Shown piece after piece: positions 46,501 to 52,500 of a stretch of DNA of 64,000 bases. Origin of the DNA: Paracyclopina nana (Eukaryota; Arthropoda; Copepoda; Cyclopoida; Cyclopettidae); assembly GCA_019096065.1 (NCBI GenBank), contig JAGUCH010000006.1, positions 1,818,001-1,882,000 of the forward strand. The letters run 5' to 3'. Below the pieces are notes generated by a model. The model saw only the letters and a program-made list of their open reading frames with translations, was not told where the DNA came from and searched no databases. The translations under genes and the position numbers were made by a program. The first letter of the stretch is position 1, and every line of letters starts with the position of its first letter.

Positions 46501-49500
46501 GCGAGCCCAGGACAATCAGCAGTATAAATGCCAGATTTGTTTACACTTTTCGCGCTATAATGGATCATTGATCAAGTTCAGCTGGTCGCAATGAGTGATT
46601 GGACTTGATTGCTACTATTAGGTCACAACTGCGATCACCAGCCTAGATTCTAGGTACGATTTGGTACGAACGGGTATTTTGCTCCGGTGAAGCATCTCTG
46701 CTGTGTTCGCATGTGATGTGAAGATGATTTTTAAGTAGATGTTTTACCAGCATAATCTGGAAAATGGGATCATGACTTGTGCTACTAAATGTATAGCAGC
46801 TGTGTGTCGTACTCACATTGTTTGCTCCTCACTAAAAATTATTGCAAGAATCAAGTAAATCTCAGATCATCACGACCGACGACGACTTCTATATTGATAG
46901 CGTTGAAAGACGCTGCTGCTCCTTCTCGCTCTGCAGCAGCAGCTACTATATACTATATAGGAGTATGCTCGGTAGTGAGAGAACATTGTCGTCCCTGTTT
47001 TTGGCAGTTACGTTGTAGACTCGTCAGTCAGAGTATGCTTCCATCATGAGGAGATCTTTTAAAGAACGTGGCAAACGTCTGCTGAATAAAATCTCCGGTG
47101 ATAATGGCAGCAGCAGCCCCAATAGTGTTTCAACTACGGACAACAGCAGTGCTGCAGCCATTGCTCTTAATCCAGCCTTCGAGTGTGAGTCTGTTAAAAA
47201 AAATGTCCACCTTTGACCTTAAGAAAAAAAGCGACTCTTTTAGCTGCTTTTTCATCCGTGATGCAGGTCTCAAAAATTAGATCTATTGGATTACTGCACG
47301 AGCTCAATATACAGTCTGTCCGTTCAAAATTGGACGGTACGGGAATCTAAACTTTGTGTCACATATTCAAGACATACAGGACTTTTAAATGATATCGATG
47401 GAAAGATTGAGTCTTTCCCCATCTTTTTTGTAAAAATAGAAAAATCTATTTAAACGGGAAAAAAGCGAGAAAATTCAATTTTCCCTAGGCAACCCAAAAA
47501 ATCGTCACGAAAAAAACTTATGTATCATTTATTTTTTGCTGTCACGCGGAATTCATATTAATATTTTTCATTTTGTCAGAAAACAAAACAGATGTCTAAA
47601 GGTTCAAGCTTTCAAACGATACCAATTACGCCTCGAAATTCATGAATTCATAACACAAACTTTTGATTCCCGCACCGTCCAATTTTAAACGGACAGACTG
47701 TATATGGAGGTCTAGAATAATGGCATTAATTTGTGGGTATGCGTAGTGACACCTCGCGTTACTCTTTTGTCCCCTGATTGAGTGACTTTGGCACTCGGGG
47801 AATATGGACCTGAAAATATGGGTTTATACAGAAAGGCTACAAGCTGCTGCTTTCAATGCACCCATGCATGCCTAAAAGGCCTTCTGGCCTTGATGTCTGG
47901 CAAGGCACATCAGAAAGAGATTTATATTTTGTTCATGCTTGATTGAAAAAATGCTCGGAGAACAACATGAATGACCCAATATATATCTCGTTTTTCCCCC
48001 ACTGCTGCTCTAACAAATACAGTCAAGGAGTTCCTCGAAACAGCGAAAGAAGAGTTTGAGGAGAAATGGAAAAATCCTGTGAAAGTAAGTGTGTCTAATG
48101 CTTGTTGTTTTCTCTTCCAGTTCAAGACTTTTTGGACAAGGCTAAGAAAGATTTTGAGGAGCAATGGTCGAAAAATGTCAAAGTAAGCGAGGCACGAGGA
48201 AAAATAACAACCATTTTAACGCTACTAATTGGATTTGGCTCTGTGAACTAACATCGTAATGTTTCCTCCCTTTGTCTCTATTGCGAATAGCAATGCTTGA
48301 ATTTCCTTGAAAATAATTCCTGATCTCGAGCCTTTTCGGCGAAAATTCTCCTTTTTTAGGGTGAATTCCGACAAGGAAATCTCTTGAGATAGTTAAAGTT
48401 GAGATTTTGCTTTGATCTATCCATACTCAAAGCAAATGAATGACTCTTCTAACTTCTTTCTTGGCACTCGACCTGAAGGTTAATCTATTGCCTTGGTTGG
48501 CAAATTGAAGCTAGCTGATCGTTTGCATCTTTGCTCGGAATATTTATGCGCTCTTCTTTGATCCTCTTGCAGAATACAGCTTGTCTGGAAGATTTCGACC
48601 GGTTAAAAACCCTGGGGACAGGATCCTTCGGCCGAGTCATGCTCGCGCAGCACAAAGAGAAGAAACAATTTTATGCCATGAAAATATTGGACAAACAAAA
48701 AGTAAGTGAGAAGGAAAAAAATAGGCAACGGGTGCATAAAAAATACGCGCAGTACACTGTACCTGTTATTTATGGACTCGCCCATTTGGCTGCTGTCCAG
48801 GCCTTCATCAGTATTCATTTGTTGGAAAAATGAGCATGTCCTCACACAATTTGTTTTTATCAAGGTTGTCAAACTGAAACAAGTGGAGCACACGCTGAAC
48901 GAGAAACGCATTCTGCAAGCCATTTCCTTCCCATTCCTTGTCAGTCTGGAGTTTCACTTTAAGGTAAGCCGAAGGCTCGCGATGAAAGCCACTCTCAAAA
49001 GTTATCAACAGTTCGAGGAAAGTAGCAATTGCAAACTTGCAGGACAATTCCAATTTATACGTGATCATGGAGTATGTCCCAGGGGGAGAAATGTTTAGCC
49101 ATTTGAGGCGAATCGGAAGATTTGGGTAGGAGTCACATGAATAATTTCAGTGTAAAATGGGGACTTTTTGTACTCTGTCCATTATTGAAGCGTCAGCTAT
49201 TCCACTTCATATTATAATCGTAAGGGATATAGTTTTGTGGCCGTTTTTTTCAAAGAAAATGCTTTACTTTCACTTCTCCTGCGTCGATTCTGGGGCTCTC
49301 TCATATGTGTCAGGATTTGACGAAAAGTTGCTGATTTGGCTAAAAAAGAAATGATGGGGAGCTCTCCTACAACACTTATTTTTTCCTTCGTGTCTCCTTA
49401 TAAACCACATGTCGTCAACAGCTGTAATATTTCAGGATAATAGCAATCTGTATATGGTTCTTGAATTCATTTCCGGTGGTGAAATGTTTAGCCATCTTCG

Positions 49501-52500
49501 TCGCCTAGGGAAATTTAGGTATATAACCCCGATATGCCGAAAAGAGCATAAAAGTGTATCTGTAGCAAACGCTTTTGCATGTGACGACAAATTCATGACC
49601 CTCGAATGCACATAGTCAAGCTGCTAAGCAGAAACTTTTCGGTGCAAGGATGATATCAGCTTTTGTCACACCTTTTCAAAGGAGGATTTCAAGCAGGTGA
49701 AGGAGAGGAATATTTTTCTTCGAGGCTGCTGAAATTCTCCTGTGACCTCGCTCGAAAAGTTTCTATTTTTGCATCGCACACTCCAAAATACTATGTTAGC
49801 GTACAGCGCTCGCAGTATCTGTGTAGAAGCCGTGTACATGCTGTAGTATTTTACTATCATCATTCCTGCATTGCCATATAATACCATATCCCAGCCAACC
49901 AAAGTTGTGTACGAATCAATATAGTCGGGCTACAGTAGAAGTGTATCTTTCTTCAGTTGTTTTTGTTGCTCTCTTCTCTTTATGTTATTTCTGTATTCTT
50001 CACCTCCCCCAATTTAGGACAACTCTAATTTGTACATGGTCCTTGATTATGTCCCCGGAGGAGAAATGTTCTCGCATCTGAGAAAAATCGGTAGATTCAG
50101 GTAAGTCCACAAGTGCACACTTTTAATCTCTTTTGCTTGCTTCTGAATCCCTTTGAAAAATACTATATTTGTCCTTCTCAATGTTATCTAGCCAATATTT
50201 TTCCTTGTTGTCAGTTTGTATTTGGTACTTCTAAGTAAGGATAATCAACATTTTTTTTCTCTGTATTTTTCAGTGAGCCCCACTCCAGATTTTATGCAGC
50301 TCAAATTGTGCTAGCTTTCGAGTACCTTCACTACCTGGATATTATCTATAGGGATCTTAAGCCAGAAAATCTACTTATCGACAGCCAAGGCTATTTGAAG
50401 GTATGCGTCTTCTTTTGAATACCAATTGTAGTAATTGCCTCTTGGAAATAATTTTGTGGAAACCGATATGAGCCCTCCTTTTTTCACCAAATTAAAATAT
50501 ATCCGGAATTCATTCACGGCCACATTACCGCACATTTCTCCTTCCAGATTACCGATTTCGGATTCGCAAAACGAGTCAAAGGGCGCACTTGGACCCTGTG
50601 TGGTACACCTGAGTACCTAGCACCAGAAATCATTCTTAGCAAGGTAAACGCGACAACGATAATAATGCTATTTTGAGCTGTGGCAGTTAATTGCGTCTAA
50701 AACGGGACTTTTTGCTATACATAATATCTCGCGACGACCACGACGAAATTCAGTGCTTCTAGCTAATTTGTACAAAAAAAGCGTTGTGATGACACCATAT
50801 CGTGTATAACACTGTGAAGGTTTGGGATGATAGTACAATGTCCGGTCACGCCAAAACCTACACTAGTGGCTACCGAAGAGTCAATCGCCAGCGTTACAAG
50901 CAACGAACGGACGATTGCAGTGATACCGAAGTTGTCGAGCTGGGAAAGCTGCCACCTATCGGAGAATGCATTAAGCTTGTAAAGAAACGACAAAGTTTAA
51001 CCTGTCCGATGTCCGAGTTAGCGTCATTACACACTAGATGCTTTTTGCGCCAATATTTGCCGAAAAAAGTTCACGCTTCCATTGGCGATTGATTTTTGAT
51101 CTCTGCCCCGTACAATTGTACTAGTAGAAGCCTGATCTCGTTTTACAAGTAAAGGAAGATCGAAGAGAGCTTTCGTACTTTATTAACACTTTTAAACCAC
51201 CAAGAACATCACGTACAACGCACATTGGGCCAGGAACAGCCGCATTATTATATACAAAAAAGCACTGCTCAACTCTTTTTAAATCCTTGTTGCTGATTTC
51301 TACTACTACTACTACTGAATTGCTGCTTGTCTTCCGGAGAATATGGACCGTCCAAGCTTCTCCTGGCCTTTTGTGTCTTGCTGCATGATGTGGCCGCCTT
51401 GCTTTGAAGCAGTCATTTGAATCCGGACTTTCTCCTTTTCAGGGCTATAACAAAGCTGTCGATTGGTGGGCTCTTGGTGTTCTCATGTATGAAATGGCGG
51501 CGGGTTACCCGCCATTCTTCGCCGACCAACCCATTCAGATCTACGAGCGGATCGTCTCAGGACGGGTATGCATATGACACATGCGAAAAATCCCCTTTTT
51601 GCTATTTTGCATTGATGCTTTGCAGGTACGATTTCCATCCCACTTCAGCTCCGACTTGAAGGACCTTTTGCGCAATTTGCTGCAAGTCGACTTGACAAAA
51701 CGATACGGAAATCTGAAGAACGGTGTTAATGACATCAAAGGCCACAAGTGGTATGCAACCACTGACTGGATAGCCATCTACCAGAAAAAGGTACGAGGAA
51801 AAAGAAGGGCAGTCACTATGAAGGAGTGACGGAGTAAACCAGGAATTTCTGCAAGCCAACTGCAAGGCCCTAAAATGTGTGATTTTTTAAGGTGGATGCT
51901 CCACTGATTCCCAAAATTAGAAAGGCAGACGACACTAACCACTTCCAGGAATACGAGGAGAATGAAAAGCTGTTTGATATTGCAAAGAAATGCGAATATG
52001 AGAGGGATTTTGAGGACTTTTGAAAGATACTTTCCCCGCAAAGAAGTATTACACTAAAGCATTATTATCATTTACTAGATACTTATATGTTTCGTGCCAC
52101 TCTGGGGAGTTGTGCTTTGTGGTGTTTCTAGCGCAATATCTCTTTAAGGTCTCTTAATAGTGAGCATTGGCCGGCTACTATTATTATTCAGTCTCGTTTT
52201 CCTTCTGCTGGGGGATTGTTCAAAAAGCTGCTATCATATTTGTTGTACATTTTTTGTATGCTTTCCTCTCTTTGATACTAGAAACAATGGTAGCATAAAG
52301 CCAACCACTAGCTTCTATAGTACATTGTAAGCTTGTGTCCTCTTCTTACCTCGCGGTAAAAAGCTGCCTTGCTGTAAATGAAAGCAAACATATTGCTCAT
52401 AGCATAAATCATCATACTTTATTTCCTACTCGAGCTGTCAGCTCGATTTGAACATTGCCATCGTGTGTGTATTATACATTGTGCTGTATATAGCTACATT

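Follow-up and report, generated by a model that had tools for sequence, protein, structure and literature searches.

Protein kinase A (PKA) is a model protein kinase, in which the gatekeeper, the hinge and the shell of the regulatory spine are usually treated as fixed. A gene of the copepod Paracyclopina nana raises the question of whether these elements can be chosen by splicing. The gene encodes a PKA catalytic subunit (PKA-C) and lies on the + strand at positions 22614–52653 (~30 kb) of a stretch of 64,000 nt, here called the window (contig JAGUCH010000006.1, positions 1,818,001 to 1,882,000). An earlier, sequence-only reading of this DNA proposed that it carries three mutually exclusive copies of the exon that encodes the hinge. 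From the analysis described here, it is highly probable that this is a single-copy PKA-C gene in which three copies of exon 5 (5a, 5b and 5c) form a mutually exclusive cluster, which selects the hinge together with residues of the spine shell.

Three frame-locked copies of exon 5

The 274-residue core encoded by exons 3–9 matches solved PKA Cα over its full length (566.8 bits to 5n3n), and 56 distinct sequences of solved structures match it at E ≤1e-100. The translation contains the Gly-loop, the activation loop and the C-terminal FxxF-type end of a PKA catalytic subunit of the PRKACA/B type. In the genome of P. nana itself (92 Mb, 10 contigs), the best off-gene match among the high-identity matches listed is on another contig and shows 58% identity over 177 residues. 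Thus, there is no close second gene to account for the exon-5 copies.

Exons 5a, 5b and 5c (49043–49125, 49436–49518 and 50018–50100) are each exactly 83 nt long and share the same phase; each keeps an open frame between its AG acceptor and its GT donor. Residue numbers refer to mature Cα and were counted along the alignment to the solved chain. This alignment places exon 5 at residues 112–139 and confirms the differences ascribed to 5a, 5b and 5c, respectively: Met, Leu and Leu at gatekeeper position 120; EYVP, EFIS and DYVP in the hinge (residues 121–124); RRIGRF, RRLGKF and RKIGRF in the basic stretch (residues 133–138); and Gly, Ser and Ser at residue 139, with an invariant Glu127. In addition to these differences, 5a has Val-Ile in place of Met-Val at residues 118–119. 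The proposal that exactly one copy must be included also holds, as transcripts modeled with zero, two or three copies (together with exons 2a and 10a) shift the frame and run into an early stop. Two of the marks of a mutually exclusive cluster are present here, namely neighbouring homologous exons that agree in length and phase and have intact splice sites, and a frame that is kept by a single copy only.

The copies differ at 30 (5a/5b), 21 (5a/5c) and 31 (5b/5c) of the 83 nucleotides, and at 8, 5 and 7 of 27 amino acids, respectively. Over 88 nt in register, the identity to the first copy is 66–76%, and the likeness between copies ends at the exon borders, which argues against both a recent duplication and a duplication introduced during assembly. 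Tandem copies commonly attract assembly errors, and the repeats in the Ixodes P0001 and Ostertagia P0005 models look like examples (P numbers denote the related proteins described below); these repeats are identical or lie within larger repeats, and both cases were rejected as exon alternatives and are probably artefacts of gene modeling or assembly. For P. nana, an explanation of the tandem copies by misassembly, or by a functionless recent duplication, is refuted by the data and retains almost no probability: the copies differ at 21–31 of 83 nt, their introns are unrelated, and independent data contain the same peptides. A chance origin of the three copies is also excluded. In a six-frame scan of the window with a 27-residue probe, they score 126–138, and the top score in five mononucleotide shuffles of the window (+ strand only) is 28. 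A fourth copy is not apparent in the 64-kb window, where the next place scores 25.

All three copies have been under protein-level constraint. In four directed comparisons between copies, random substitution at the observed distance gave equally few amino-acid changes and no stop in 2, 0, 0 and 0 of 200,000 trials. Since random trials almost never match the observed pattern, none of the copies has drifted freely. For the pair 5a/5c, the nonsynonymous divergence (dN) is 0.145, compared to a synonymous divergence (dS) of 2.09; dS is saturated in the other two pairs.

Predicted structural consequences of the exon choice

The regulatory spine is backed by three shell residues, among them Met118 and the gatekeeper Met120. 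Loss of both of these kills PKA, and restoring either one results in partial activity (PMC3797032). Exon 5a provides Val118 and Met120 at these positions, and both 5b and 5c provide Met118 and Leu120. In the hinge, Glu121 and Val123 contact ligands of the adenine site through their main chains (PMC13167742). Two residues nearby, Glu127 and Met128, are the same in all three copies. Glu127 contacts the substrate arginine in PKA, and Met128 is part of the catalytic spine. As both stay fixed across the exchange, all forms are expected to be active PKA. Ser139, in place of which 5a has Gly, is an autophosphorylation site of bacterially made Cα.

The exchange would act on one module, consisting of the shell residues 118 and 120, the adenine-contacting hinge (residues 121–124) and the basic stretch (residues 133–138) beside the substrate site. 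The resulting forms may differ in how tightly they bind ATP, in basal activity, in their response to inhibitors, or in preference for peptides or the R-subunit. Such natural, selected alternatives of the module are ready variants for testing how much change in hinge and shell an active kinase tolerates, and whether animals make use of it.

Exon-5 versions in related proteins

Related proteins were collected as the best 120 of 7858 matches (7981 candidates scored), the best 120 of 856 and the best 120 of 299, giving 311 different proteins. These contain 313 full-length stretches for the comparison of exon 5, and the remaining differences were counted over a core of 239 residues. The tree was computed from exons 3–9 without exon 5, for 31 of 34 chosen rows and the window sequence (P0012, P0246 and P0019 were left out, as the sequence pattern used did not fit them). 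The window sequence is placed beside zooplankton-like jgi proteins, within a group of 12 rows that also includes Tigriopus and Lepeophtheirus, in line with a copepod. The support of this group (91/96) is moderate and below the threshold for a star, and none of the starred sets in this tree of 31 rows plus window contains the window sequence.

The 5b peptide is identical (28/28 residues) in five of the 313 stretches (P0014, P0026, P0048, P0065 and P0078), and none of the 313 is identical to 5a or 5c. P0065 and P0078 are not independent, since their names point to one assembled transcript gene and they show no differences in the core (0/239). P0026 is the same as P0014 over the first 221 of the 239 core residues and then diverges. 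In the tree, P0014, P0048 and P0065 fall within the group that includes the copepods. This conservation bears on the possibility that the exon-5 versions are neutral and that the choice regulates the amount of enzyme, through frame breakage and decay, rather than its type. Inclusion of a single copy versus any other choice would indeed form an on/off gate, and Glu127, Met128 and hydrophobic residues at positions 118 and 120 are kept in every version. However, a gate does not require three versions, and a 5b peptide that is unchanged across separate branches of the copepod-containing group is unexpected for a neutral variant; we consider this explanation improbable.

A 5c-type exon (27/28 residues) is present in P0003, P0007 and P0011. 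Compared to P0014, which is of the 5b type, these three differ at 1, 2 and 1 of the 239 core residues, respectively, and at 6 of the 28 residues of exon 5. The 5b- and 5c-type relatives have unbroken frames of 353–472 codons on contigs of 1.9–3.8 kb, compared to at least nine introns in the homologous stretch of P. nana. We infer from this that they derive from spliced RNA, provided that their genes share the architecture of the P. nana gene. Of the working triplet suggested earlier, 5b and 5c are thus backed by close counterparts in proteins of apparently spliced-RNA origin, and 5a is not.

Isoforms of the same species on contigs of equal size, which have no differences in the core (0/239) and a different exon 5, were identified in four crustaceans. 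Penaeus vannamei (P0045, P0050 and P0064) has three exon-5 versions, including DNTNLYMVLEYVP..., ...RKIGRFS and DSTNLYMNLPFVS...RRARRFS. Two versions each are found in Macrobrachium rosenbergii (P0034 and P0058), Eriocheir sinensis (P0022 and P0031) and Pollicipes pollicipes (P0051 and P0072, one with LNLDYIN). Additionally, the models of the isopod Armadillidium (P0121) and of a mite (P0122) each have a tandem pair of exon-5 stretches that differ from one another, the upstream one with a Met gatekeeper, as in 5a. The proposal of alternative hinge exons therefore stands in that the copies are intact, frame-locked and constrained, and their use one at a time is backed by relatives; it has to be amended in that they are not special to the P. 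nana gene. A proline at the position of Glu121, a radical change of the hinge, is seen in P0064 of P. vannamei (MNLPFVS) and in P0246 of Limulus (MVLPYVV).

Splice signals and the proposed selection of a single copy

In the mechanism that we propose, the spliceosome would take one exon-5 copy per transcript. Wrong products, with zero, two or three copies, would lose the frame, and nonsense-mediated decay is expected to clear them. Among 12 donors scored, that of 5c is the highest (12.63), and those of 5a (4.74) and 5b (4.91) are the lowest and second lowest. The 20 positions before the acceptor contain 8 pyrimidines in 5a and 11 in 5b, which is weak for both, and the tract of 5c is good. As 5c has the strongest splice sites and those of 5a and 5b are weak, 5c is probably the default, and 5a and 5b probably need tissue- or stage-specific activation.

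The introns between the exon-5 copies measure 310 and 499 nt, a length that argues against steric exclusion. Base-pairing of the docking/selector type was evaluated for six pairs of introns, against 100 shuffles per pair, and gave z values of 1.5, 0.3, −0.1, −1.4, 0.3 and −2.1. An inverted repeat (I3, positions 49540–49557 with 50117–50134) falls in the best-scoring intron pair and alone is no evidence for pairing.

Several points weigh against a working cluster of three exons. The best intron pair (z −2.1) is matched by 3 of the 100 shuffles, in what is a weak test, and the splice-site matrix is a generic one, taken from general knowledge and not trained on the P. nana genome. The public isoforms are gene models produced by annotation. 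Seven same-species pairs (from the second gene of Pollicipes, and from Hetaerina, Ischnura, Procambarus, Folsomia, Argiope and Parasteatoda) show no difference in exon 5, which speaks against the exchange as a general rule. Finally, 5a has the weakest donor, the weakest pyrimidine tract and a glycine at residue 139. It has no arthropod match among the 313 stretches, where the nearest sequences (26/28) are vertebrate proteins; this absence is weak in itself, as the protein database was clustered at 90% and may hide isoforms.

These features of 5a would fit a situation in which only 5b and 5c work, as a pair, and 5a is a relic that is decaying or seldom used, as its weak splice sites, Gly139 and missing arthropod counterpart suggest. 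We regard this as possible, but doubtful. Exon 5a is free of stops, its splice sites are intact, and it is constrained, with five amino-acid changes for 20 nucleotide changes, a ratio that was matched in 2 and 0 of 200,000 random trials. The 5b donor is nearly as weak, yet 5b has counterparts in spliced-RNA proteins, and upstream copies of the Met120 type are present in the P0121 and P0122 gene models. Within the proposed three-copy cluster, 5a is best described as a candidate alternative, in view of its weak splice signals and the missing arthropod match.

Comparison with known systems

Mutually exclusive exons are well known, and an exon swap in PKA-C has precedent. As far as we searched, the open-licence literature offers no precedent for a gatekeeper, shell and hinge chosen among three versions. 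In Aplysia, PKA-C isoforms reportedly arise from one gene through the swap of an exon inside the kinase core (Beushausen et al. 1988, Neuron 1:853). The cassette is said to cover approximately residues 142–183, in the next exon (exon 6, with the catalytic loop), and to come in two versions. The P. nana gene would be similar to this case in producing isoforms from one gene by a swap in the kinase core. It differs in that exon 6 is single and exon 5, with the hinge, is present in three versions. No second copy of exon 6 was found within positions 48600–50800, the region covered, as no dedicated scan was made beyond it. A separate event in molluscs would fit the bivalve gene model P0006, where the exon-6 stretch is present in two differing versions; by score, the bivalve proteins P0009, P0010 and P0123 resemble P0006. 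The earlier statement that no described PKA-C with splice-selected hinge variants was known to its author agrees with our searches of the open-licence literature, from which subscription papers are mostly missing and in which we found no report of a splice-selected PKA hinge. It should be qualified by the internal PKA-C exon swap reported for Aplysia in 1988.

FYN provides another comparison. Its exons 7A and 7B are a mutually exclusive tandem pair that extends into the region of the ATP site (PMC9741552), as is proposed for the PKA gene studied here. Unlike PKA, FYN is a tyrosine kinase with two versions, which concern the linker between SH2 and kinase domains and the N-terminal portion of the latter rather than the gatekeeper and hinge (PMC9741552).

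The decapod isoforms PKA-C1, CD1 and CGLY are thought to derive from a single gene, as would those of P. nana, another crustacean, and are defined by their N-termini only (Head et al. 2025, PMC12608923). That paper states that the isoforms within one decapod show no differences once the catalytic domain begins, and calls for genomic data; the words exon and hinge are absent from its main text. Contrary to this description, exon 5 varies between the database isoforms within each of three decapods. This corrects the view of crustacean PKA-C isoforms as differing at their N-termini only, and cautions that a single PKA-C sequence, or a single dose of H89, may misrepresent the PKA of a crustacean.

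Drosophila Pka-C1 is not known to have coding introns. Likewise, honeybee pka-c1, an arthropod PKA-C ortholog as is the gene studied here, is a single-exon gene, and so cannot be spliced (PMC1769443). The intronless honeybee gene may be the reason that model insects never showed the cluster. A tentative wider reading, which we put forward with reservation, is that the exon-5 cluster is old in arthropods, and that crustaceans, and perhaps mites, could make PKA-C forms with differing gatekeepers, spine shells and hinges from a single gene. Splicing in each tissue would then set how PKA binds ATP, how active it is at the basal level or which targets it chooses. The same speculative reading would include the radical versions MNLPFVS of penaeid shrimp and LNLDYIN of the barnacle, with the intronless gene of the honeybee (and of the fly) as the explanation for why the cluster went unseen.

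Gene structure and other alternative exons

The choice of exon 5 would run parallel to independent choices of the N-terminus (exons 1 and 2) and of the C-tail (exon 10). The frame is open in 12 of the 12 combinations of exons 2, 5 and 10 (2 × 3 × 2). The exons of the gene are listed in Table 1.

Table 1. Exons of the P. nana PKA-C gene, in window coordinates.
Exon	Position	Strand	Length (nt)	Features	Related proteins and remarks
Alternative first coding exon, MSFF type	22614..22698	+	85	MSFFPWNKKDKKSK... start	similar to P0007, P0014
Internal N-terminal exon	38656..38967	+	312	follows the MSFF start	a further exon may lie between
Alternative first coding exon, MGN type	40466..40511	+	46	canonical myristoylation-type start	residues identical in P0003
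Proposed alternative first coding exon	47046..47184	+	139	MRRSF start	no counterpart among the 311 related proteins
2a	48023..48084	+	62	alternative A-helix exon	same peptide in P0003
2b	48121..48182	+	62	alternative A-helix exon	near-identical peptide in P0007, P0008, P0014
3	48573..48701	+	129	glycine-rich loop	
4	48865..48963	+	99		
5a	49043..49125	+	83	Met120 gatekeeper, hinge EYVP, Val118-Ile119, Gly139	
5b	49436..49518	+	83	Leu120 gatekeeper, hinge EFIS, RRLGKF, Ser139	
5c	50018..50100	+	83	Leu120 gatekeeper, hinge DYVP, RKIGRF, Ser139	probable default
6	50274..50400	+	127	catalytic loop YRDLKPEN	single copy
7	50548..50643	+	96	DFG and activation loop	
8	51443..51565	+	123		
9	51626..51790	+	165		
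10a, last exon, coding part	51892..52023	+			similar tail in P0003, P0007
10b, last exon, coding part	52528..52653	+		ends CAKEFADF	near-identical tail in P0014

The gene has at least three alternative first coding exons. Two extra ones, of the MGN and MSFF types, were located in the window through the N-termini of related proteins; a regex check among the 311 related proteins gave no counterpart of the exon with the MRRSF start. Exons 2a and 2b form a second frame-locked pair, in which inclusion of zero or both copies breaks the frame. The gap between them is 36 nt, compared to 60 nt for the shortest other intron of the gene, which suggests that they cannot be spliced to each other. A 2a-type exon is present in P0003 and a 2b-type exon in P0007, P0008 and P0014. 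The alternative last exons 10a and 10b result in different C-tails, and related proteins show both types, with a 10a-like end in P0003 and P0007 and a 10b-like end in P0014.

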